Source: Synechococcus sp. MVIR-18-1 (lineage in GTDB: Bacteria; Cyanobacteriota; Cyanobacteriia; PCC-6307; Cyanobiaceae). Taken from it: a DNA stretch of 64,000 bases. The stretch lies in the NCBI RefSeq assembly GCF_014279835.1, contig NZ_CP047942.1:992001-1056000 (forward strand), in the 5' to 3' direction. The position numbers and the translations under genes were made by a program. How positions within the stretch are numbered: the stretch's first letter is position 1; every line of letters begins with the position of its first letter. A model generated the notes under the pieces. The model had not been told where the DNA came from. It searched no databases and saw only the letters and a list, made by a program, of their open reading frames with translations. Below are positions 1,986-14,836 of the stretch, one piece after another.

Positions 1986-2029
1986 TCGGGGTGACAGGAT
2001 TCGAACCTGCGACATCCTGCTCCCAAAGC
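1986..2029 (-). repeat. attL: 44-bp fragment of tRNA-Pro 3' part
   Basis: Identical to 14763-14806. It covers the anticodon loop, T arm, 3' acceptor strand and discriminator base of tRNA-Pro, but the next bases (from 2030) do not continue as a tRNA. It is therefore the displaced 3' half of the original chromosomal tRNA gene and marks the left end of the element. The crossover site lies somewhere inside the identical 44 bp. Confidence 0.93.
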
Positions 2030-2133: not shown

Positions 2134-2153
2134 TTGCACACATCTTGCACACA
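2134..2153 (+). repeat. Tandem TTGCACACA repeat, left end of element
   Basis: Two copies of TTGCACACA (2134-2142 and 2145-2153) are spaced 11 bp start to start, one helical turn. An equally spaced pair lies near the right end (14669-14688). They are candidate arm-type binding sites for the integrase or its excisionase. The second copy overlaps the first possible TTG start of the integrase, so binding could also repress int. Confidence 0.7.
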
Positions 2154-3329
2154 ATTGGAGAGCAGGATGTCGCTAAGCAGTTGCCACGCATCAGTCAAAT
2201 TGAGCCTTGGGTGAAGCCCTTTAGGGACCAGATAAAGGTGTCTTGTGGTCCTGGTTGGAAGGTCCTGAATAGTCGTGGAACGATGCGACTTCAGGTCGTT
2301 GATGTGGGGTCAGTGATGCTCCCTTACGAGTGGACGCTGAAAGGATCAACGCAAGCCTTGCCTCGTATTCAGCAGATCTTTAAGCGTTGGGATGGTGGGC
2401 GCATCACCCTTACTGCTGCATCGCAAGTCGCCAACACAAGCAGTTCACATCAGAAACTCGATTTCACTCAGTTAGTTGATGCTTTTCAGAAGTTCGTTCC
2501 TTATGCAGGCGAGAAAACGTGGAAAGAGAATTACGTGCCTGTTCTCCGCAACTGCCGCGAGCAATTCAAAGACCGACCCCCAGTGGACGGTGAAGCTCTT
2601 TGTATGGCAGCACTGGCGCAATGGGAACAGGGCACAAGGATGCGACAAATCAGCCGCAGAGTCCTTTCCAAGTTCTTGGATTGGGCGGTGCAAAGGGGTC
2701 ACCTAAAACCCATTTACAGCCCACCTGCTCGTTTGCCTGAAACGTTGAAGCCAAAGCGGGTTGGGTTCCCACTCAGCGATGCACAAATCCTTTCCTTGAT
2801 TGAATCAATCCCTGACCCTCGCTGGCAGTTTGCTATTCAATTGCTTGCGGTTTTTGGGTTGCGTCCTGAAGAGTTGCGTTGGTTGCGAATCAAGGATGGT
2901 GCTCTTTGGTGCATCTATGAAAAATCAATGGGTGGCATCAAAGGTCAGAAAACAGAACCGCGTCGCTTGCATCCGTTGTTTGTCCGTGATGTTGACGGCA
3001 CGGCTGTTGATTGGAAGCTTCAGGCTCGTCTTCAAATCGGTGAAGAATTGCCTCCCCTAAGAACTGAAGGAAAAGGTGCTCAAGCTGTCACCTCATATCT
3101 GCGAAGACGTAAAACCTGGATGGCAATGATTGAGGAGGCAGACCATGCAGGTGAACAGCTCACGACTTATTCATTCAGGCATCGCTACGCCAAAGAAAGC
3201 CATACCAAGAACCTTCCTGTCGCCAACATCGCTGAGGCAATGGGACACACGATGGAAGTCCATCTCAAGAACTACGGCAGGTTCAAACCATCAGGAACAG
3301 GAAACCTTTATGCAGAGGTGAACGTTTAG
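2145..3329 (+). CDS. int: Tyrosine-type site-specific recombinase (integrase)
   Basis: Integrates and excises the element by recombination between attP and the tRNA-Pro attB. Up to 394 aa, the usual size of a phage-type tyrosine integrase. An N-terminal arm/core-binding region (about 1-205) precedes the catalytic domain. Visible catalytic residues are Arg240 in FGLRPEELRW, Arg335 in the TYSFRHRYA box, His358 in AEAMGHTM and the nucleophile Tyr367 in LKNYGRF. The first His of the usual HxxR motif is replaced by Tyr332. The first possible start is TTG at 2145, inside a TTGCACACA repeat; a later in-frame TTG (about codon 13) may be the real start. It lies 115 bp inside attL and reads into the element. 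Confidence 0.92.
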   Translation: MHTIGEQDVAKQLPRISQIEPWVKPFRDQIKVSCGPGWKVLNSRGTMRLQVVDVGSVMLPYEWTLKGSTQALPRIQQIFKRWDGGRITLTAASQVANTSSSHQKLDFTQLVDAFQKFVPYAGEKTWKENYVPVLRNCREQFKDRPPVDGEALCMAALAQWEQGTRMRQISRRVLSKFLDWAVQRGHLKPIYSPPARLPETLKPKRVGFPLSDAQILSLIESIPDPRWQFAIQLLAVFGLRPEELRWLRIKDGALWCIYEKSMGGIKGQKTEPRRLHPLFVRDVDGTAVDWKLQARLQIGEELPPLRTEGKGAQAVTSYLRRRKTWMAMIEEADHAGEQLTTYSFRHRYAKESHTKNLPVANIAEAMGHTMEVHLKNYGRFKPSGTGNLYAEVNV

Positions 3330-3438
3330 CGAGGAATGGAATGAATAATTTCTAGAAAACCCTTCTCACGGCAGCTCTTGCATGGGCATGCATCGTCATC
3401 CCAAACATCGCTTGGTAAGACTTAGGCAGGAGTCTCCT

Positions 3439-3870
3439 ATGGGGTCTGTCCTATGTCCTGCCGCCAGCTTTTGTTGGTCCACCTGTCCTACTAGTTGCTG
3501 CTTTCTGGGTGGCTCTGTTTGCTTGGGCGATATGGCGGCTTTGGAAGACGAACGGCTAAAAGAACAGTCTCAACCCAATGGGGAATCTCGCCAAACTTCT
3601 CTGATGTGGCAGCAGCAGCCTGATTACGCCAGATACAAAGAGAAGTCCAACGGTGAAGGCTGGCTGGTCAACAGACAGGAAGGGATGCTCCTTCAGATCA
3701 AGCCCGATACACCAACGCAACATGCTCAGTTCGTTTTGGTGAGCTATTACCGCTTGTCAGCTCGCATTGGGAAACCCATCAGGCAGCAAAGGATGCTCAG
3801 GCATCTAGGCATCGAGATGTGGATCAACTTGCAGAAGATCGGTTGGCAACGCTGCACGCCGCCCAATTGA
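3439..3870 (+). CDS. Hypothetical protein of the mobile element
   Basis: An open frame between the integrase and the outer-membrane protein array. The C-terminal 110 residues (from MAALEDERLKEQ, ATG at 3532) look like a soluble basic protein with segments WLVNRQEGMLLQIKPDTP and RMLRHLGIEMWINLQKIGW. The N-terminal part from ATG 3439 is Cys/Ser-rich and less protein-like, but that ATG has a good AGGAG ribosome site six bases upstream. The same DNA read one base over encodes a membrane-like peptide, so a frameshift or sequence change here is possible. No family recognised. Confidence 0.45.
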   Translation: MGSVLCPAASFCWSTCPTSCCFLGGSVCLGDMAALEDERLKEQSQPNGESRQTSLMWQQQPDYARYKEKSNGEGWLVNRQEGMLLQIKPDTPTQHAQFVLVSYYRLSARIGKPIRQQRMLRHLGIEMWINLQKIGWQRCTPPN

Positions 3871-3952: not shown

Positions 3953-5053
3953 ATGCAGAGTTCCTTGCGGCTGTCGTTATCGCTGAGTGGTGTTGCTGCA
4001 CTGGCACTCTCTAACGGCGCTGTGTTGTCTGCTGCTGCTCAAGACGTTGGCGGCGCAGAAGACCTCGGGGTGATGGAGATCAACCTCAAGGATGCAGTCA
4101 AGTTCAACTGGGGTTTTCAAGGCGCACTACAAGGAGCAGGCACGCCAAATCAAACAGGTATTGGTGGGTTCCTTCCGATAGCTGTAGGCGAGAACAGTGT
4201 GTTCTTTGCTGATGTTCTGCTCAATGCGAACTTTGCTGATTACGGCGGTAATAGCAGCATCGTCAATACAGAAGTTGCTGGTACAACAATCAGCACCTCG
4301 TCAAGGCTTGGGTATCGCTGGCTGAATAGTGACCGCAGCTGGATGTATGGCGTGAACGGCGGCTATGACAGCAGGCCGATGAATACAGGCAATGCTGAAA
4401 CAGGTGTCACGCTCTACGACAAGGAAAGTGCTTTCTTTCAGCAGATCGCAGCAGGTTTAGAAGCAGTCTCTGATACCTGGAACTTCAATGCTTATGCCTT
4501 GATCCCAGTTGGTGATACAGAGCAGCGCCTCAATGCGCGTTATTTCGGTGGGGCACTTGATACCTATGGCCTTGATGTTGGTTATTTCATCACACCAGAT
4601 CTCAATGCCTCAATTGGTTACTACTACCAAAGCGGTGATCTAGGAACAGCAGATGGTTCAGGCGTTCAGGTCGAGCTGGATTATCAGATCGCCTATGGAT
4701 TAACTGCTGGTATCAATGTTTCCTATGACGAAGCTTTTGAAACCAGAGTTTCAGGCAACATTGAGTATCGCTTTGGTAGCAATAGTTCAGCTGCAGAAAC
4801 CAAGAAAAAAGCATGGCAAAAGCCAACCATTCAAGCCTTATCTGAAAGCGTTAAAAACAGGAATGTTCGCGTTCATGATGCAACAGATCCACAGAATAGC
4901 TGCAAGATATTTAATCCGCTCGACGGCCGTCCTGTCGCAACATTTTTCGGGAGCCAATACAAGGCAACACTCACGGCGGGCACGGCGGGAAAGAGGCGTA
5001 GGTGGCACTGTAACCCAGGTAACCCAGGCAATGGCGGCTGGGAACCCGCTTGA
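3953..5053 (+). CDS. Inverse-autotransporter-like outer-membrane barrel protein, copy A
   Basis: 366 aa. A signal peptide (about 1-32, LSAAAQ) is followed by a beta-barrel (about 45-275) with the intimin/invasin-type pattern: ANFADYG, SSRLGYRWLNSDRSWMYGVNGGYD, FFQQIAAGLEAVSDTWNF, LDTYGLDVGYFITPDLNASIG and EAFETRVSGNIEYRFG. It should insert in the outer membrane and present its C terminus outside. A conserved linker (QKPTIQALSESVKNRNVRVHD) leads to a short tip of about 55 residues with two Cys and a CNPGNPGNGGWEP ending. It is the first of five tandem paralogs; barrels of A, C and D are nearly identical while the tips differ. Its own leader and terminator suggest a single-gene transcript. Family by motif pattern only; a porin of another family is the alternative. 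Confidence 0.85.
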   Translation: MQSSLRLSLSLSGVAALALSNGAVLSAAAQDVGGAEDLGVMEINLKDAVKFNWGFQGALQGAGTPNQTGIGGFLPIAVGENSVFFADVLLNANFADYGGNSSIVNTEVAGTTISTSSRLGYRWLNSDRSWMYGVNGGYDSRPMNTGNAETGVTLYDKESAFFQQIAAGLEAVSDTWNFNAYALIPVGDTEQRLNARYFGGALDTYGLDVGYFITPDLNASIGYYYQSGDLGTADGSGVQVELDYQIAYGLTAGINVSYDEAFETRVSGNIEYRFGSNSSAAETKKKAWQKPTIQALSESVKNRNVRVHDATDPQNSCKIFNPLDGRPVATFFGSQYKATLTAGTAGKRRRWHCNPGNPGNGGWEPA

Positions 5054-5096
5054 GTACAAGCCCATCTAGGATCTAATATCTCATCAAAACTCGCTT

Positions 5097-5309: not shown

Positions 5310-6410
5310 ATGCTGCGTCGTCTTTCCCTAGGGCTTTTGGCTTCTGCCATCTCTATTGCTGCTCTTCCTGCCATTGCTCAAGAGGACGGAAGTGCTGATG
5401 ACCTCGGGGTGATGAGCATCAGCCTTAAGGATGTCGTCAAGCCAACCCTTGGTTTTCAAGGGGCACTGCAAGGAGCAGGCACGCCGAATCAAGCAGGTAT
5501 TGGTGGGTTCTTGCCTCTCTCTGTTGGCGACAACAGCGTCTGGTTTCTTGATGTCCTCGCTAACGCCAACTTTGCTGACCGAGCTGGCGAGAGCAGCATC
5601 ATCAACACCGATGTTGCAGGAACAACAATCAGCACCTCATCAAGACTTGGTTATCGCTGGCTTAATAGCGACCGCAGCTGGATGTTCGGGCTGAATGGCG
5701 GTTATGACAGCCGCCCGATGAATTCAGGGTCGACAGATACAGGGATTGACGTCAGCGGCAAAGAAAAGTCAGTCTTTTTTCAGCAAGTTGCTGTAAATGC
5801 AGAGGCAGTTAGTAATAGCTTTAATTTTAATGCCTATGCCCTAGTCCCTGTTGGTGATACTCAACAACGATTGAATCCCTATTACGAATCAGGGGCACTT
5901 GATAAGTATGGAATCGATGTTGGCTACTTCATTACTCCTGACCTCAATGCATCAGTTGGATATTATTATCAGGCAGGCGATGCACCCTGCGACCAAGCTG
6001 GAGGCAAGAATCCTGATGGGTCTGGCATCCTTGGGAAATTAGGCTATGAAATTACAGACGGATTAACCTTAGGCGGGTCGATTTCCTACGACAATGCATA
6101 CCAAACCCGTGTTTTAGGTACAATAAGTTATCGCTTTTTTACAGAAAATCAAAGCAAAGCTGAGAAGGAAAAGTCCTCTAATATCCCAGTCATCAAATCT
6201 TTAACGCAAACACCATCAAATCGGAATATTTTTGTTCACGATTCTGGCTCCGGGTGCACACCTTCCGCAGATTCGCCATATCCTAACGGGTGCTTCCGTA
6301 GTCCGAACGGGATTGACGCTTGTAGGTGTAGACTTTATAGTGAATGCTGTACAAAGCAATGCACACCGTACGATAACGATCCAAATAAGCCCGGCGTGTG
6401 TACTGGTTAG
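5310..6410 (+). CDS. Inverse-autotransporter-like barrel protein, copy B, with cysteine-rich tip
   Basis: 366 aa. Signal peptide MLRRLSLGLLASAIS...AIAQ (about 1-23) and a barrel homologous to copy A (SSRLGYRWLNSDRSWMFGLN, LDKYGIDVGYFITPDLNASVG). It forms a second subtype with copy E, sharing their signal peptide and the SISLKDVVKP segment. After the linker (PSNRNIFVHD) the tip of about 53 residues has eight Cys, arranged C-x11-C-x9-C-x-C-x5-CC-x3-C-x11-C, containing CRCRLYSECCTKQC. The CC pair with flanking Cys fits an inhibitor-cystine-knot-like disulphide pattern, consistent with exposure outside the cell. Function unknown; a binding or effector role for the tip is inference. Confidence 0.85.
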   Translation: MLRRLSLGLLASAISIAALPAIAQEDGSADDLGVMSISLKDVVKPTLGFQGALQGAGTPNQAGIGGFLPLSVGDNSVWFLDVLANANFADRAGESSIINTDVAGTTISTSSRLGYRWLNSDRSWMFGLNGGYDSRPMNSGSTDTGIDVSGKEKSVFFQQVAVNAEAVSNSFNFNAYALVPVGDTQQRLNPYYESGALDKYGIDVGYFITPDLNASVGYYYQAGDAPCDQAGGKNPDGSGILGKLGYEITDGLTLGGSISYDNAYQTRVLGTISYRFFTENQSKAEKEKSSNIPVIKSLTQTPSNRNIFVHDSGSGCTPSADSPYPNGCFRSPNGIDACRCRLYSECCTKQCTPYDNDPNKPGVCTG

Positions 6411-6799: not shown

Positions 6800-7930
6800 A
6801 TGCAGCATTCCTTGCGCCTGTCCTTATCGCTGAGCGGTGTTGCAGCACTGGCACTCTCCAATGGGGCTGTGTTGTCTGCTGCTGCTCAAGACGTTGGCAG
6901 CGCAGATGATCTCGGGGTGATGGAGATCAACCTCAAGGATGCAGTCAAGTTCAACTGGGGATTTCAAGGGGCACTACAAGGAGCAGGAACACCAAACCAA
7001 GCAGGCATCGGCGGGTTCCTTCCAATCGCTGTTGGCGAGAACAGTGTGTTCTTTGCTGATGTACTGCTCAACGCCAACTTTGCTGATTACGGCGGCAAGA
7101 GCAGCATCGTTAATACAGAGGTTGCTGGAACAACGATCAGCACCTCATCAAGGCTTGGGTATCGCTGGCTGAATAGCGACCGCAGCTGGATGTATGGCGT
7201 TAACGGCGGCTATGACAGCCGCCCGATGAATACAGGCAATGCTGAAACAGGTGTCACGCTCTACGACAAGGAAAGTGCTTTTTTCCAGCAGATTGCAGCA
7301 GGTTTAGAAGCAGTATCAGATAGCTGGAACTTCAATGCTTATGCCTTAGTTCCTGTTGGTGATACAGAGCAGCGCCTCAATGCGCGTTATTTCGGTGGGG
7401 CGCTTGATACCTATGGCCTTGATGTTGGTTATTTCATCACCCCAGATCTCAATGCCTCTGTTGGTTACTACTACCAAAGCGGTGATCTAGGAACAGCAGA
7501 TGGTTCTGGCGTGCAGGTAGAGCTGGATTATCAGATCGCTGATGGTTTAACTGCTGGCATCAATGTTTCCTATGACGAAGCGTTTGAAACCAGAGTGTCA
7601 GGCAACATTGAGTATCGCTTTGGTAGCAATAGTTCAGCTGCAGAAACGAAGAAAAAAGCATGGCAAAAACCAACAATTCAATCCTTATCTGAAAGCGTTA
7701 AAAACAGGAATGTTCGCGTTCATGATGCAACAGATCCAGATGGGACGTGCAAAATATATATCACGCAGGATTATAATTTTGGAGCGATTTATAAGGGGAG
7801 CCAAAGCCAAGAAATATCAATTACGTTCTACAGAACCAAAGCCATCCCAGTCCGGCCAGGGGCGTCCGGCATTGTAGCCCACTGCAACCCAGGCAACCCA
7901 AAAGTTGGCGGCTGGGAACCCCCTAAATAG
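6800..7930 (+). CDS. Inverse-autotransporter-like outer-membrane barrel protein, copy C
   Basis: 376 aa from ATG 6800 (MQHSLRLSLSLSG). The frame is open further upstream, but the signal peptide and leader match copies A and D, which sets the start. The barrel (about 45-275) and linker are nearly identical to copy A. The tip (about 311-376) is different: it keeps one Cys soon after VHDATDP, then a strand-rich segment (SQEISITFYRTKAIPVRP), and ends HCNPGNPKVGGWEPPK like copy A. The break between near-identity and divergence is sharp, just after the VHD motif. Confidence 0.87.
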   Translation: MQHSLRLSLSLSGVAALALSNGAVLSAAAQDVGSADDLGVMEINLKDAVKFNWGFQGALQGAGTPNQAGIGGFLPIAVGENSVFFADVLLNANFADYGGKSSIVNTEVAGTTISTSSRLGYRWLNSDRSWMYGVNGGYDSRPMNTGNAETGVTLYDKESAFFQQIAAGLEAVSDSWNFNAYALVPVGDTEQRLNARYFGGALDTYGLDVGYFITPDLNASVGYYYQSGDLGTADGSGVQVELDYQIADGLTAGINVSYDEAFETRVSGNIEYRFGSNSSAAETKKKAWQKPTIQSLSESVKNRNVRVHDATDPDGTCKIYITQDYNFGAIYKGSQSQEISITFYRTKAIPVRPGASGIVAHCNPGNPKVGGWEPPK

Positions 7931-8185: not shown

Positions 8186-9403
8186 ATGCAGAGTTCCTTG
8201 CGGCTGTCGTTATCGCTGAGCGGTGTTGCTGCACTGGTACTAGCTGGCACTCCTTTGCTTCCTGCTGTTGCAGAAGAGAGTGCTGCTTTATTGCGGCAGC
8301 AGGAATACGACAAGCTTCTTGAGGAGAATGAACTACTCAAGCAACGCAATGAACAGCTAGAGGCTCAGATCAGCGGCTCTTCTCAAGGCAAAGACGATGC
8401 CTTTGATCTGCAGGAGATCAACCTCAAGGATGCAGTCAAGTTCAACTGGGGTTTTCAAGGCGCACTACAAGGAGCAGGCACACCAAACCAGACAGGTATC
8501 GGTGGGTTCCTTCCAATCGCTGTTGGCGAGAGCAGTGTGTTCTTTGCTGATGTGCTGCTCAACGCCAACTTTGCTGATTACGGCGGCAAGAGCAGCATCG
8601 TTAATACAGAGGTTGCTGGAACAACGATCAGCACCTCATCAAGGCTTGGGTATCGCTGGCTGAATAGCGACCGCAGCTGGATGTATGGGCTGAACGGTGG
8701 TTATGACAGCAGGCCGATGAATACAGGTGGAACTGATACGGGGATCATTGTCAGCGGCACAGAGAAGAGTGCTTTCTTTCAGCAGATCGCAGCAGGTTTA
8801 GAAGCAGTATCAGATACCTGGAACTTCAATGCTTATGCCTTGATTCCTGTTGGTGATACAGAGCAGCGCCTCAATGCGCGTTATTTCGGTGGGGCGCTTG
8901 ATACGTATGGCCTGGATGTTGGTTACTTCGTCACCCCTGAACTCAATGCCTCTGTTGGTTACTACTACCAAAGCGGTGATCTAGGAGAAGCAGATGGTTC
9001 AGGAGTTCAGGTCGAGCTGGACTATCAGATCGCTGATGGTTTAACTGCTGGTATCAATGTTTCCTATGACGAAGCTTTTGAAACCAGAGTGTCAGGCAAC
9101 ATTGAGTATCGCTTTGGTAGCAATAGTTCAGCTGCAGAAACCAAGAAAAAAGCATGGCAAAAACCAACCATTCAAGCCTTATCTGAAGCCGTTAAGCACA
9201 GGAATATCCGCGTTCATGATGCAGCAGATCCAGAAGCTAAGTGCAAGTTGTTTAATCCGTTCGACGGCAGGTTTATCAGTTCCTTGTCAGGGAGCCTTTC
9301 CGTACAGTACCTTTACCGTTCAACGGCGTTCGGAACAAGCAGCCATCCTGTCAAATATATCAATCATTGTAATAAAAATGGCGGCTGGGAACGCGTTAAA
9401 TAG
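8186..9403 (+). CDS. Inverse-autotransporter-like barrel protein, copy D, with N-terminal coiled coil
   Basis: 405 aa, the longest copy. The signal peptide matches A and C, but about 40 extra residues are inserted before the barrel: a heptad-type coiled coil (ALLRQQEYDKLLEENELLK then QRNEQLEAQI) and a Ser/Gly/Lys/Asp hinge. The barrel (about 85-315) and linker (QKPTIQALSEAVKHRNIRVHD) are nearly identical to A and C. The tip has two Cys and ends HCNKNGGWERVK. In classical inverse autotransporters the N-terminal periplasmic segment often mediates dimerisation or peptidoglycan contact; the coiled coil may do the same by oligomerising in the periplasm. Confidence 0.87.
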   Translation: MQSSLRLSLSLSGVAALVLAGTPLLPAVAEESAALLRQQEYDKLLEENELLKQRNEQLEAQISGSSQGKDDAFDLQEINLKDAVKFNWGFQGALQGAGTPNQTGIGGFLPIAVGESSVFFADVLLNANFADYGGKSSIVNTEVAGTTISTSSRLGYRWLNSDRSWMYGLNGGYDSRPMNTGGTDTGIIVSGTEKSAFFQQIAAGLEAVSDTWNFNAYALIPVGDTEQRLNARYFGGALDTYGLDVGYFVTPELNASVGYYYQSGDLGEADGSGVQVELDYQIADGLTAGINVSYDEAFETRVSGNIEYRFGSNSSAAETKKKAWQKPTIQALSEAVKHRNIRVHDAADPEAKCKLFNPFDGRFISSLSGSLSVQYLYRSTAFGTSSHPVKYINHCNKNGGWERVK

Positions 9404-9444
9404 TACTGACCCATCTAGGATTTAATATCCAATCAAAACTCTCA

Positions 9445-9663: not shown

Positions 9664-10827
9664 ATGCTGCGTCGTCTCTCCCTGGGGCTGTTGGCTTCTG
9701 CCATCTCTGTTGCTGCTCTGCCTGCCATTGCCCAAGAGGACGGCAGTGCTGATGACCTTGGTGTGATGAGCATCAGCCTTAAGGATGTGGTCAAGCCCAC
9801 CTTTGGTTTTCAAGGTGCTTTGCAGGGTGCAGGAACACCTAACCAGGCAGGCATTGGTGGGTTCTTACCTCTCTCTGTTGGCGAGAACAGCGTTTGGTTC
9901 CTGGATGTCCTGGCTAATGCCAACTTTGCTGATTACGAGAACAACAGCAGCATCATGAATACGCAAGTTGCTGGCACCACGATCAGCACCTCATCACGGC
10001 TTGGATACCGCTGGCTGAATAGTGATCGCAACTGGATGTATGGGCTGAATGCTGGTTATGACAGCCGCCCAATGAATACAGGTGCAACTGATTATGGAAT
10101 TCCTTTATTTGGGACTGAGCGGAATGTTTTCTTCCAGCAGGTAGCCGTTAATGCAGAGGCTGTTTCAAATGATTGGAATTTCAATGCTTATGCATTAATT
10201 CCTGTCGGTGATACCGAGCAGATTCTGAATTGGGCTTTTGATGGGGGCGCACTCGATACTTATGGAATCGATGTTGGCTATTTCATAACGCCTGCACTTA
10301 ATGCCTCTGTTGGTTACTACTACCAGCAAGGCGATCTCGGTTCTGCAGATGGCTCTGGCGTTCTCGGACGAGTTGCGTATGAAGTCAGCAGTGGATTAAT
10401 AGCAGGAGTGAATTTCTCCTACGATGAAGCATTTGAGACAAGAGTTTCAGCTGATCTGAAGGTTCGCTTTGGTGGTGCAAGTACAACAGCACATCGCAAA
10501 GTTGTTCAACAACAACCTGTGATCAGTGCATTAACTATGTCGCCTGAAAACAGAGATGTACGAGTCCATGATAGCCTTTGGGGTGACATTAAAGGCGGCT
10601 TTGATGATGTCGCCGATGTCGCTGATGATGTCGCCTCGGGCGTAGAGGATGCCGCTGACTACACGGCTAGTGAGCTTCGAGCCATAGCACGAGCAGCAAT
10701 TAAAGAAGCCAGAATAGCTGCAAAAAACAGGGAACTCTTAGAAGACCTCGAAGGCGACGCAACAGAATTTGCCGAAGCCGCGGGTGAAGCATGTGTTGAG
10801 GGACTTTGCGAAGCTGCAGCTATATGA
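9664..10827 (+). CDS. Inverse-autotransporter-like barrel protein, copy E, with helical tip
   Basis: 387 aa from ATG 9664, chosen because it gives the same signal peptide as copy B (MLRRLSLGLLASAIS). The barrel (about 35-265) keeps all family segments (SSRLGYRWLNSDRNWMYGLN, LDTYGIDVGYFITPALNASVG, EAFETRVSADLKVRFG). After the linker (MSPENRDVRVHD) the tip of about 80 residues is unlike the others: Ala/Asp/Glu-rich and helical (DDVADVADDVASGVEDAADY, then AIARAAIKEARIAAK), with two Cys near the end (EACVEGLCEAA). It is the last and most diverged gene of the array. Confidence 0.86.
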   Translation: MLRRLSLGLLASAISVAALPAIAQEDGSADDLGVMSISLKDVVKPTFGFQGALQGAGTPNQAGIGGFLPLSVGENSVWFLDVLANANFADYENNSSIMNTQVAGTTISTSSRLGYRWLNSDRNWMYGLNAGYDSRPMNTGATDYGIPLFGTERNVFFQQVAVNAEAVSNDWNFNAYALIPVGDTEQILNWAFDGGALDTYGIDVGYFITPALNASVGYYYQQGDLGSADGSGVLGRVAYEVSSGLIAGVNFSYDEAFETRVSADLKVRFGGASTTAHRKVVQQQPVISALTMSPENRDVRVHDSLWGDIKGGFDDVADVADDVASGVEDAADYTASELRAIARAAIKEARIAAKNRELLEDLEGDATEFAEAAGEACVEGLCEAAAI

Positions 10828-10839
10828 AGCGTTCGAACC

Positions 10840-10887
10840 TTTAGATAAAACGATATAGCTGAAATAAGGTGTCATTTTTGGACATTG
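10840..10887 (+). repeat. Diverged 3' cassette repeat after copy E
   Basis: TTTAGATAAAACGATATAGC and GGTGTCATTTTTGGACATTG match the blocks after the other copies with several changes. No leader motif follows, so the array ends here. Confidence 0.65.
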
Positions 10888-10890
10888 AAC

Positions 10891-10912
10891 CCCGCCACGA
10901 GCGGGTTTTTTT
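10891..10912 (+). terminator. Rho-independent terminator after copy E
   Basis: CCCGC-CACGA-GCGGG hairpin followed by seven T. Confidence 0.85.
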
Positions 10913-11138
10913 ATTGCAGCGGGGAATGCTTTAAGCAGTTGCCCTCAACCAATGACCCTCGACACTCAGATGACGCTGGCTCTGCTTCAGGAGCTGTTGA
11001 TAGCAGTTGGCAAGTGTGCCAGTTGTGTCCAGCTCTTTTCGGGATCACTATCAATCGCGCATTGCCACTAGCTTTTCAATGATTGATCAACTGCCTTGAC
11101 CACAGTGACGCTGGACAGGCACAGCTAAGTCTCCTTCC

Positions 11139-11530: not shown

Positions 11531-13807
11531 TCAGATTTCTTCGTCATCGTCGAACTCGTAGACGGGTGGACCTTCGGCAATTAATGCCTTGGCTTGTGCG
11601 CCGGAGATGGTGCGCTTGGTGACGTGTTGAAACTTGTTGGCGATCTGAACAGGCAACAAACCAGGGCTGTCTTTGACGATTTTCCAGAAGGCATCGGTGT
11701 GACCGTTCAAGGAGGGGGGAGAGAGAGACACCCCGGAAAGGTCTGGGGTGTTTTGTTGGAAGTCATTGCCTTCAGCTGTTGAAGGTTGGATGCACATTGG
11801 AAGTGTTGTTAGAAGTTCAGGAAGTAGTGGTGAACTACCTTCTTCACCTACTTCCAACATTTCTTCCTCTTTTATTAGGGGGTGTCTCTCTCTTGTTTGA
11901 ACCCCTTTCTCTTTTTGTGGCTTTTGTTGGAAGCTATTTCTGAACTCATGCGGCATGAAGTACAGACCAGCAACCCCTTGGCGTGGCTTTTGAACTAACC
12001 ATCGACGGCAAGCAGTGTCACGACCGACAGAGCTTCTGAGGGTGTTTCCTTCATCAGAAGAAAGCCCCATCAACTGTTCTGCATCACGAAGCCCGATGGG
12101 CTTCTCTTGCAGCTTCAAAAGGTTTTGAAACTTGGTCCGCCAGCTTTGGTCTGGAGCCATGTGACTCAGATCGGAATCAAGAGTCCAAGCCCAACCGTTT
12201 GGCAAGCCATCGATTAACTCAGTTCGCTGTAAGCGCAGCTGCCACAAGATGCTTGTCTCGCGCTTCTTGTCGGTCTGCAATGTCCGCAGCTCTTCATCAC
12301 CTTCAACGGCTTTGAGATTGAACAGACCCCACACACCAGCAGGGGTGTCTTTCGTCCCGCTGGCTTTACCTGCACCGTTGTTGTGGTGAATGATGATTCC
12401 AGACTTGCCGCAATCGTTGATGAACTTGGCAATTTTGCGAATCACCAGCTTTCCAAAGTCAGCATGGTTCTCGTCAACGCTCAGGCTGCGAGCAACAGCA
12501 CGAGCAGAGTCAACAATCACCAAGTCGACGTTGTTGCGAATCAGAAGCTTCAGTTGTTCAACATGACGTCCTTTTGCGAGGTCAAACGTCTTGCTAAAGA
12601 ACCAATCCTTACCGACTTCCAAGCCATCACAGAACTCACTCTTAGCCAGTCCAATTGCTTTGACGCGTCTACCAAAGGTGCCGCCTTCTTCAAGTTGCAG
12701 GATTAAGGGAACACCTCTCTTGACGGGGAAGCCAAGGAAGTCGGTTCCCATTGCGACGGCTGCCGCGATGGAATAAGCGAACAATGATTTCCCTGTTCCT
12801 GGGTCAGCGCTGATAACGATGGTTTCTTCCTTCGGCAGCAGGAACGGAATCACCCAACTGCCATCGATGTCGTCATCACCTTCAAGGTCTTCGGCTGAAC
12901 CAAGGAAACCGTTTTCAGTAGTTCCAGCTCTGTAATCGTCGATGTCAGCCAATAGCTGACTCATTTTGACTCGCAGTTTGGTTGCAAGAACGGAACAGGT
13001 GGCGTCAACAGTCTCAACATCGTTTATTTCAGCGAGTGCTTTTATCAGACGTTTCCGTTCTGCTGGTGTGTAGCTGCGCTTCAAATCACCTTCATGCGTA
13101 AGTAAAGATGCAGGCAAGGGCCATCCTTCAACCTCAGCAGCGGCTAAGAGGTCCTCTAAAGCCTGTGCGCCATGACGAACAAGGAAATCATCGGCTCCAT
13201 TCTTTCTGCCATCAGGTTCGCTTGGAAGCTGGCAACGATAAGGACGAGCGCCACGATTACGGGTCCATTTACCAATGTCGCCTGCTGCTTCATCAACGCT
13301 GATGTTGTCTTCAATATCAGAATCAAACAGGATGATGACCTTGCGACCACGCATCGGAATTGCCTTTAGTTCAGGCAGCAAACGGGTGTCATTTTCTGAT
13401 TCCCATTTACCGGTTTCGTCGCGACGGTCTCTGGTATTCCAAGTTCCAGTTAGCCCGACAAAACAGAACCCAGTTGGGATGTGCTCGTAACAGCTATCAA
13501 CCTTGACTGGACCTTCGATAAACACCAACGGGACGCTGATGTTGTCGAGGTAGCCATCAGGCATCAACGGGCTGAAATAAGGTCGCGAACCACTTCCTTT
13601 TGGCGCTTTGAATTTGGGCTTACCTGTAGGGAACAAACGTCTGACGATGTAATCATCGCCGTTGCTGTCTATGTATGGCTTGCCCTCAGGGTCGAGGTAG
13701 CGAATACCAAGATGGCAGCCATCACTGAAATAATTGTTTTCAGGCAGCTCTGTTTTGACTCCTCTTTTTCTCAGGTATTCGACGTGATCTTTTCGGAGCT
13801 TTGGCAT
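11531..13807 (-). CDS. Primase-helicase (TOPRIM/DUF3854-like plus RecA-like ATPase)
   Basis: 758 aa from ATG 13807; a GTG one codon earlier is possible. The N-terminal part has DUF3854/TOPRIM features: PLVFIEGPVKVDSCYE, GLTGTW and ILFDSDIEDN (about 95-200). The middle (about 330-510) is an AAA_25/RepA-type RecA fold with Walker A SADPGTGKS, ILQLEEGG, Walker B LVIVDSARAV and IIIHHNN. The C-terminal 200 residues look like winged-helix and linker regions. It should start or support replication of the excised element. The ATG overlaps the stop of the upstream HTH gene in TGATG, implying translational coupling. Similar proteins are known from plasmids, satellites and integrative elements. Confidence 0.88.
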   Translation of the reverse strand: MPKLRKDHVEYLRKRGVKTELPENNYFSDGCHLGIRYLDPEGKPYIDSNGDDYIVRRLFPTGKPKFKAPKGSGSRPYFSPLMPDGYLDNISVPLVFIEGPVKVDSCYEHIPTGFCFVGLTGTWNTRDRRDETGKWESENDTRLLPELKAIPMRGRKVIILFDSDIEDNISVDEAAGDIGKWTRNRGARPYRCQLPSEPDGRKNGADDFLVRHGAQALEDLLAAAEVEGWPLPASLLTHEGDLKRSYTPAERKRLIKALAEINDVETVDATCSVLATKLRVKMSQLLADIDDYRAGTTENGFLGSAEDLEGDDDIDGSWVIPFLLPKEETIVISADPGTGKSLFAYSIAAAVAMGTDFLGFPVKRGVPLILQLEEGGTFGRRVKAIGLAKSEFCDGLEVGKDWFFSKTFDLAKGRHVEQLKLLIRNNVDLVIVDSARAVARSLSVDENHADFGKLVIRKIAKFINDCGKSGIIIHHNNGAGKASGTKDTPAGVWGLFNLKAVEGDEELRTLQTDKKRETSILWQLRLQRTELIDGLPNGWAWTLDSDLSHMAPDQSWRTKFQNLLKLQEKPIGLRDAEQLMGLSSDEGNTLRSSVGRDTACRRWLVQKPRQGVAGLYFMPHEFRNSFQQKPQKEKGVQTRERHPLIKEEEMLEVGEEGSSPLLPELLTTLPMCIQPSTAEGNDFQQNTPDLSGVSLSPPSLNGHTDAFWKIVKDSPGLLPVQIANKFQHVTKRTISGAQAKALIAEGPPVYEFDDDEEI

Positions 13808-14202
13808 CACCCTTGTCCCCCATCAACTAGTTGATCAAGGGTTGTCTCCTCGTAGATCTCGATGGCTTGTTGGAGATGCTTTAGTTCTGCGGCTCTACGT
13901 TCGTCTTCTTTGCGCACCGCTTCAACAGTCCGTCGACGCTGCATCTCCCGAATTGCAGGGATGCAATAGAGGACAGGTCCACCGATGGATCCTGTTGCAT
14001 AAACCCAATGCGTTCCAGGATCGAGCCTGCGCTCACGGCGCATATTTCTAAGGGTGCTGGGCTTTAAAGCCAAAAGCTTTGCGGCTTCAGGCTCATGCAC
14101 CCATTCAGGAATGTAGTTCCCTGCTCTTAATCGGTCCCCAGATTCGCTCGAAATAGGCGCGGATTTCTGGAGAGTCTTCTGGCTTAGATGCGTTGATGAC
14201 AT
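13807..14202 (-). CDS. Excisionase-like HTH DNA-binding protein
   Basis: Up to 131 aa. The central part reads EAAKLLALKPSTLRNMRRER, then HWVYATGSIGGPVLYCIPAI, the pattern of MerR-like/excisionase winged helix-turn-helix proteins. The C-terminal part is a charged helix (EAVRKEDERRAAELKHLQQA). It likely controls excision or element gene expression. From ATG 14202 it overlaps the upstream gene by 98 bases; that ATG has AGGAGG six bases upstream. A later GTG start (VHEPEAAK) would avoid most overlap. It is coupled to the primase-helicase by TGATG. Confidence 0.7.
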   Translation of the reverse strand: MSSTHLSQKTLQKSAPISSESGDRLRAGNYIPEWVHEPEAAKLLALKPSTLRNMRRERRLDPGTHWVYATGSIGGPVLYCIPAIREMQRRRTVEAVRKEDERRAAELKHLQQAIEIYEETTLDQLVDGGQG

Positions 14203-14728: not shown

Positions 14729-14762
14729 TCAGATGTCAGTGCAGGACTGACTTGTTTTGCAG

Positions 14763-14806
14763 TCGGGGTGACAGGATTCGAACCTGCGACATCCTGCTCC
14801 CAAAGC
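14763..14806 (-). repeat. attR: 44-bp repeat inside tRNA-Pro
   Basis: Perfect copy of 1986-2029. On this side it completes the tRNA-Pro gene, whose 5' half (14807-14836) is chromosomal. Confidence 0.93.
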
Positions 14807-14836
14807 AGGCGCGCTACCAAACTGCGCTACACCCCG
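14763..14836 (-). tRNA. tRNA-Pro (anticodon TGG)
   Basis: 74 nt without CCA. The acceptor stem CGGGGTG/CACCCCG, the D arm, the anticodon arm CCTGC-TTTGGGA-GCAGG and the T arm with GTTCGAATC are all intact. It serves as the integration site of the element at its left; the 3' 44 bases come from the element. Confidence 0.96.

Follow-up and report, generated by a model that had tools for sequence, protein, structure and literature searches.

The window analyzed here, a stretch of 64,000 nucleotides from Synechococcus sp. MVIR-18-1, carries on its forward strand five genes for related barrel proteins, each with its own C-terminal tip. Copy A (3953-5053) ends in a tip with two cysteines (CK...HCNPG...GWEPA), copy B (5310-6410) in one with eight, and copies C (6800-7930) and D (8186-9403) in tips with two each. 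The last copy, E, was recognized as an ORF with barrel-family matches and occupies positions 9664-10827; its frame of 387 residues (9664-10824) is open and is followed by a stop codon ending at 10827. The N-terminus, MLRRLSLGLLASAISVAALPAIAQ, looks by eye like a Sec signal peptide. It is followed by a predicted 12-strand barrel (residues 46-270, positions 9799-10473) and by a linker (residues 285-304, positions 10516-10575), which comprises a short helix and a conserved strand within NRDVRVHDS and was delimited using the structural model, the alignment with the intimin entry 4e1s and the conserved columns. The remaining 83 residues form an Ala/Asp-rich tip (10576-10824), which according to translation, homology searches and tip grouping is unique to copy E. 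The codons of its cysteine pair (C377 and C382 in the motif CVEGLC) are located at 10792-10809. No Pfam or NCBIfam family fits any of the copies A to E above its cut-off.

Copy D contains an extra coiled-coil-like stretch (8276-8395) between signal peptide and barrel. The same arrangement is found in two copies from Prochlorococcus MIT 0701 (L106 and L114), and the stretch is probably periplasmic in all three proteins. Copies A, C and D each have a similar out-of-frame ORF of 104-122 amino acids (4716-5069, 7563-7877 and 9057-9425) that overlaps with the 3' end of the barrel and with the tip; these three ORFs are probably a by-product of the conserved barrel DNA. The tip of copy B (6246-6407) and the tip of the barrel in L075 are both dense in cysteines, with eight each including a CC pair, and by eye show a knottin-like spacing; neither gave a match in Pfam or a convincing one in the PDB, and the best hit of the copy B tip among solved structures had an E-value of 0.45.

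A 12.8-kb element inserted at a tRNA-Pro gene carries the five copies as cargo. At the left end an exact 44-nt repeat of the 3' end of this tRNA gene marks the attachment site (1986-2029, forward strand), and the right repeat (14763-14806) lies inside the tRNA-Pro (TGG) gene itself (14762-14836, reverse strand). The element encodes a tyrosine recombinase (integrase; 2145-3329, forward strand), identified by PHROGs (8.8e-18) and below the cut-offs of NCBIfam and of Pfam Phage_integrase (18.9 bits versus 27.1), and a DUF3854/AAA_25 primase-helicase-like protein (11531-13810, reverse strand) found with Pfam and PHROGs. The tRNA-derived attachment repeat and the tyrosine recombinase mark the region as a tRNA-integrated mobile element. 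When the two flanks were joined and searched for as an empty site in 30 genomes, the own genome included, no match extended across the junction. In genomes G018, G023 and G026 a barrel is also located within about 4 kb of tRNA-Pro. The attachment repeat, the tyrosine recombinase, the replication-like protein and the cargo are features shared with tycheposons and tRNA-targeted picocyanobacterial islands, and the window element can be called tycheposon-like.

A repeat comparison revealed a conserved 3' block common to copies A, C, D and E. It begins with TAGATAAAACGA, contains the hairpin CCCGCCACGAGCGGG with an adjacent T run and is located at 10840-10917 (forward strand) after copy E. Copy B has a weaker version of this block further downstream. 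Since the GC hairpin and T run follow copies A, C, D and E, the tips are framed by conserved DNA. A conserved 45-nt leader starting with ACTGCCTACTGCAGCGGGCAGC was seen shortly upstream of every window copy (3888, 5245, 6735, 8121 and 9596) and could be a regulatory RNA or a recombination site. A DUF1651-type gene (3382-3870) lies just upstream of the first barrel, and 24 of the scanned loci, some of which overlap, contain genes of this kind.

The tip of copy E begins directly after NRDVRVHDS and contains 21 Ala, 21 Asp plus Glu and 7 Lys plus Arg. Among the 60 collected tips of at least 30 amino acids, copy E included, none has more Ala and none is more negatively charged (net charge -14 versus a median of +1). 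The codon-usage score is +0.18 in its own frame and negative in the other five, which supports coding in this frame only. The Ala/Asp-rich tip with two cysteines that had been described in an earlier note on this DNA is thus real. The same note had called the tip helical. AlphaFold2 does predict three helices (residues 309-327, 335-361 and 366-386), with low confidence throughout (means of 10-residue blocks from 64 to 32), so that the helical nature of the tip is a prediction only. The amphipathic moment of helix 1 is 0.53 compared with 0.19 for shuffled sequences and was not reached by any of 2000 shuffles; the value of helix 2 is not significant (P 0.086) and that of helix 3 is weak (P 0.04). 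The tip of copy A was modeled as strands, likewise with low confidence in a poor model (mean pLDDT 59), and the difference in secondary structure between the two tips may be real. The suggestion that the copy E tip is unlike the others therefore stands for its composition and charge, for its isolated position in the similarity grouping (a group of its own among 121 distinct tips) and possibly for the strand/helix contrast with copy A. It does not stand for the cysteines.

Searches for relatives of this tip were negative at several levels. There was none in its own genome; at the DNA level 31 genomes of the genus yielded the tip itself and matches of 18-32 nt only; and neither viral contigs of IMG/VR, 50,697 phage records, PHROGs nor Pfam contained a match. 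As a protein it had no convincing relative among 400 family genomes; apart from itself, six matches there are known by their scores, with E-values of 0.004-0.07 (the best with 34% identity over 63 residues). The hits among sequences of solved structures were proteasome subunits with E-values of 0.28 or worse, which we judged to be due to chance. An origin of the tip from a phage or as a separate domain, which the earlier note had proposed to look for, is without support in all of these collections, and the whole copy E protein also lacks a relative in phage records, plasmid records and IMG/VR. Homology of the tip to a normal C-terminus of the barrel family was looked for as well and was not found: beyond NRDVRVHD the collected copies share no common C-terminus.

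A search of PDB sequences with a profile of the barrel gave just two matches with E-values of 2 or worse, and for this reason a fold search was needed. Copy E was modeled with AlphaFold2 using an alignment of 31 rows. The best of five models had a mean pLDDT of 71.4 and a pTM of 0.64 (the other four had a mean pLDDT of 63 to 51) and shows the 12 barrel strands, a short helix (285-291) and a strand (301-305). Foldseek placed the beta-domains of invasin (4e1t) and intimin (4e1s) at ranks 1 and 2 and 5g26 at rank 3; we take 5g26 to be an intimin chain, in agreement with its residue numbering. Using VIA-align 2, Z-scores of 22.6 (4e1s), 22.6 (5g26) and 21.9 (4e1t) were obtained, with the next entry at 17.6. 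These alignments to intimin and invasin comprise 219-221 residues with an rmsd of 2.5-2.8 and span model residues 41-304, linker included. An ordinary porin-type barrel, our first guess, was dropped after both programs ranked intimin and invasin best. The predicted model thus has the 12-strand barrel of the intimin/invasin fold that characterizes type Ve secretion systems.

Profile matches to this class are weak. In the window only copy C matches Pfam IAT_beta, at 12.8 bits and below the curated cut-off, and its own genome contains no match above the cut-off. Among 31 aligned family members IAT_beta is the commonest weak Pfam match (6 members at E-values up to 0.1, the best 0.0095), followed by the barrel family OMP_b-brl with five, which is also the weak match of copy B. 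A bridging relative was found in genome G028: the 1379-residue protein encoded by L078:5559-9695 is related to copy E with an E-value of 3.2e-17, passes IAT_beta with 39.5 bits (cut-off 22.3) and continues into a right-handed beta-helix passenger. Ig-like (Big), lectin or LysM domains were not detected by Pfam in copies A to E. Since the window copies score below the IAT_beta cut-off and lack these domains, type Ve membership rests on the model fold and on this one relative. The missing Ig and lectin domains were not taken as excluding it, because Tsai and others, as far as the accessible part of their paper goes, include passenger-less cyanobacterial members (PMC3008723). From the fold match of the model and the bridging relative, the anchor appears to be a relative or variant of the inverse autotransporters (type Ve) and not a typical member. 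According to the model it shares with the beta-domains of intimin and invasin the 12-strand barrel, the linker helix, the strand at the linker end and a C-terminal extension in the position of the passenger. It differs from them in the variable tip of 2-107 residues, in which no Ig or lectin domain was found, in the many copies per genome and in the window copies falling below the IAT_beta cut-off.

The blocks of the linker have pLDDT values of 75, 79 and 57, and model residue 304 corresponds to chain residue 449 of 4e1s, where the alignment stops, which would suit a course through the pore. According to PMC13078405, the strand closing the linker of intimin makes a small sheet on the extracellular side and is required for protein levels and secretion. 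As the NRDVRVHD strand aligns with this intimin strand, we infer that the tip is placed outside the cell. An intimin-like barrel whose tip stays in the periplasm as a plug or envelope contact would agree with the short, Ig-free tips, with the export of intimin being driven by the folding of Ig domains (PMC13078405, in part) and with the periplasm as the place where disulfides form, a matter of general knowledge also touched on in the available sections of PMC3008723. However, the alignment of the conserved strand with intimin up to residue 449 and the hypervariability of the tips, which fits an outward position, make such a periplasmic location improbable, and we favor display at the cell surface.

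Searching its own genome with the copy E protein revealed eight copies, itself included. Matches were found in 28 of 99 genomes (own included) and, counted from the listing, in 22 of the 31 genomes of the genus; with fragments included, the largest count per genome is 19 or more. A wider search detected the family in 52 of 400 family genomes and 12 of 59 genera, again with the own genome included. Among the named hosts are Synechococcus UW140 and RCC307 and Prochlorococcus MIT 0701. Two contigs labeled as Verrucomicrobiales and Spirochaeta MAGs (L111 and L122) carry barrels that share 80-88% identity with a part of copy E; these contigs are probably misbinned picocyanobacterial DNA.

Most full-length matches to copy E stop at residues 303-318, and few reach 328-347. 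For a first set, 95 ORFs reaching residue 295 were collected and 76 were kept, which were complete, had a barrel score of at least 300, reached residue 302 and had distinct tips; of the 19 ORFs left out, five were cut by the end of the locus and 14 were low-scoring or short. A new set was taken from 40 stretches of 25 genomes, which represent part of the matches of the wider search (with a maximum of five candidates scored per genome). It comprised 54 barrel-like ORFs at a score limit of 200, seven of which were left out as incomplete or low-scoring, two of these reaching the anchor. In total, 123 complete copies carry different tips after the conserved NRDVRVHD strand, with 121 distinct tips in 98 similarity groups and many tips shorter than 20 residues. 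The statement of the earlier note that one anchor carries at least three unrelated tip types was therefore true and understated.

The boundary between anchor and tip is sharp. In the last four columns of the anchor the entropy is 0.1-0.45 bits, and over the first 20 positions of the tip it is 3.75-4.15 bits. The barrels have a median dN/dS of 0.18 (2505 pairs), or of 0.16 in 183 pairs with dS below 0.6, several of which carry unrelated tips; these ratios point to purifying selection on the barrels. The barrels of copies A and C are separated by a dN of 0.015 and a dS of 0.30, and between their common ends these two copies have very different tips. Taken together, the entropy jump, the low dN/dS and the comparison of A and C argue that tips are replaced and do not drift. 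In four loci (L053, L204, L207 and L208) barrel ends truncated at the 5' side, with tips of their own, lie inside contigs, and others lie at contig edges. They may be silent tip donors, but decaying copies would account for them just as well.

The tips are also distinguished by their cysteines. In the first set, Cys makes up 0.05% of barrel and 5.6% of tip residues; across the sets the values are 0.02-0.05% and 5.6-8.5%, respectively. Among the 76 tips, eight have no cysteine, two have one, 48 have two, three have three, nine have four, four have six and two have eight. Reduced to 59 groups, the same tips give 8, 2, 33, 1, 9, 4 and 2. In 2000 random draws with the cysteine rate of the tips, the 76 tips had a mean of 35 odd counts and never fewer than 22, compared with five observed. 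C-terminal segments of 278 other long ORFs of the same loci (not checked as genes) had 162 times no cysteine, 30 times an even and 86 times an odd number, and for seven other residue types, counted likewise in the 121 distinct tips, odd counts were commoner than even ones. Even the 14 low-scoring or short ORFs left out of the first set followed the rule (11 even, three without cysteine, none odd).

It had been stated beforehand that at least 80% of the tips of the new set would have even and at most 15% odd numbers. The 47 complete copies contain none (8), two (25), four (11) or six cysteines (3) and never an odd number; after removal of two Cys-free copies seen earlier, the 45 strictly new copies give 6, 25, 11 and 3, again with no odd count. 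In new-set tips of at least 15 residues the proportions are 35 of 39 even and 4 of 39 without cysteine, which bears out the prediction. Overall, 101 of the 121 distinct tips have an even, non-zero number, five an odd number and 15 none (80, 3 and 15 for the 98 group representatives), and 13 truncated or broken copies counted by eye gave 10 even, two odd and one without. The copy E tip with its CVEGLC pair obeys the rule. Cys-rich tips, which the earlier note had set apart, do not form a separate class, as most tips including that of copy E hold an even number, mostly two. From the even counts we infer disulfide-closed peptides outside the cytoplasm. Many of the 15 Cys-free tips are short, although the new set includes four of at least 15 residues; the Cys-free tips and some tips of 2-10 residues weaken the assumption that every tip is functional.

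The wide range in length and sequence and the near-absence of some tips would suit a barrel that works alone, as a channel or membrane structure, with tails that are unselected run-on after recombination. We had considered run-on tips early and dropped them after the cysteine statistics: no odd count among 45 strictly new copies, the enrichment of Cys in tips over barrels and the coding-like codons of tip E leave this explanation very little room. A conserved anchor with a variable, Cys-paired C-terminus, in some cases as Cys-dense as in copy B, is also what would be expected of short toxins or bacteriocin-like peptides presented for contact killing and diversified by an immunity arms race. 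The window copies, however, are arranged head to tail, and between a tip and the next copy there is no separate ORF of at least 80 amino acids, the size listed in this check (out-of-frame ORFs there overlap barrel genes). Moreover, six tips submitted to Pfam had no match, and many tips have fewer than 20 residues. We regard a toxin function as unlikely and retain the interpretation as interchangeable displayed tips.

In relatives of the window copies two types of neighboring genes recur. A Y1 transposase (Y1_Tnp 51-53 bits, cut-off 23) is called RAYT-like only, since it scores 65.8 bits with the NCBIfam RAYT equivalog NF047646 and does not reach the cut-off of 80. Of 79 barrels, 19 have it downstream at a distance of no more than 1.5 kb, always on the opposite strand and in most cases at 170-300 nt, some copies being fragments. 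Of 17 near-full copies in the genus, 10 lie within 1 kb of a barrel, compared with a rough expectation of 2% in G012, and two of the remaining seven adjoin a broken barrel (L047 and L129). Our literature search found no paper joining RAYT and Synechococcus.

The second type is a cassette of PqqD-like, acetyltransferase-like, sulfotransferase and HprK-like genes near barrels in L039 (5798-9452), L044 (twice), L070, L082, L085, L088 and L093 and near a barrel remnant in L129, often together with the convergent RAYT-like transposase. The transposase and the cassette are leads in relatives and are not part of the window element. PqqD-like proteins recognize peptide substrates in known systems. One could imagine that the tips are precursor peptides modified by the cassette before display, with the barrel in place of a leader. 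The PqqD (52.6 bits, cut-off 23.4) and Sulfotransfer_1 (61.4, cut-off 22) matches pass Pfam. A comparison by eye in the 31 genomes of the genus placed 9 of the 13 HprK-like matches no more than 5 kb from a barrel, and each of the eight genomes with HprK-like genes has barrels as well. On the other hand, every NCBIfam score of the cassette genes is below the curated cut-off, as are the Pfam scores of the kinase-like (HprK-like) and acetyltransferase-like genes. With barrel matches in 22 genomes of the genus and an HprK-like gene in just eight, most genomes with tips have no cassette; it is absent from the window element, and the linkage could reflect a shared insertion hot spot. As a general explanation of the tips, modification by this cassette has a low probability.

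We consider it likely that copy E belongs to a multi-copy family of type Ve-like proteins with short passengers, which displays interchangeable, disulfide-closed tips in marine picocyanobacteria and whose window copies are mobile cargo. The conserved barrel would sit in the outer membrane, the linker would thread its pore and, judged by the model match to intimin, the NRDVRVHD strand would mark the outer exit. The short C-terminal tip would be the passenger held at the cell surface, presumably closed by one or more disulfides. With the barrel kept by purifying selection and the tips exchanged as a whole, each genome would display a set of different peptides, in which copy E would contribute an acidic, probably helical tip with one CVEGLC pair. 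The window copies would travel with the element integrated at tRNA-Pro. The helical tip of copy E is accordingly probably one of about a hundred unrelated variants shown on the cell surface. As their most likely use, at a little less than even chances, we propose variable surfaces for recognition or evasion in encounters with phages, grazers or neighboring cells. A more extended proposal is speculative: the anchor may be multiplied by mobile elements and the convergent RAYT-like transposase, tips may be swapped as cassettes between the conserved DNA blocks and in some strains perhaps be modified by the PqqD/HprK-like/sulfotransferase genes, and the result may be an open-ended surface set for recognition or evasion.

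Prochlorosins combine a conserved leader with a variable core, which can be likened to anchor and tip. The accessible text of PMC10783134 describes them as picocyanobacterial products with hypervariable precursors and unknown function, as in the present family, but they are lanthipeptides from one promiscuous enzyme, whereas here an outer-membrane barrel stands in front of the variable part and even Cys numbers suggest disulfides. Among the intimin/invasin (Int/Inv) proteins the cyanobacterial ones form cluster E, which in the accessible part of the work of Tsai and others is said to possess the barrel only; the functions of such passenger-less barrels are called completely unknown there (PMC3008723). 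Cluster E is similar to our family in its host range, its barrel and its fairly uniform size, and may include it; the accessible sections describe it as barrel-only and, unlike the family analyzed here, mention no variable Cys-paired tips (PMC3008723). Our literature search, partial and of open papers, found no paper on such tips.

The even-Cys rule provides a simple way to find and test further members, and the anchor might serve as a natural scaffold on which disulfide peptides are displayed. In Synechococcus and Prochlorococcus, resistance to phages and grazers is commonly linked with the variable surface genes of genomic islands, and many of the displayed proteins are unnamed. With a fixed anchor and about a hundred unrelated tips, the family is a concrete candidate for such variable surface genes. 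It may also offer a use for the cyanobacterial intimin relatives described, in the accessible part of PMC3008723, as consisting of a barrel only.
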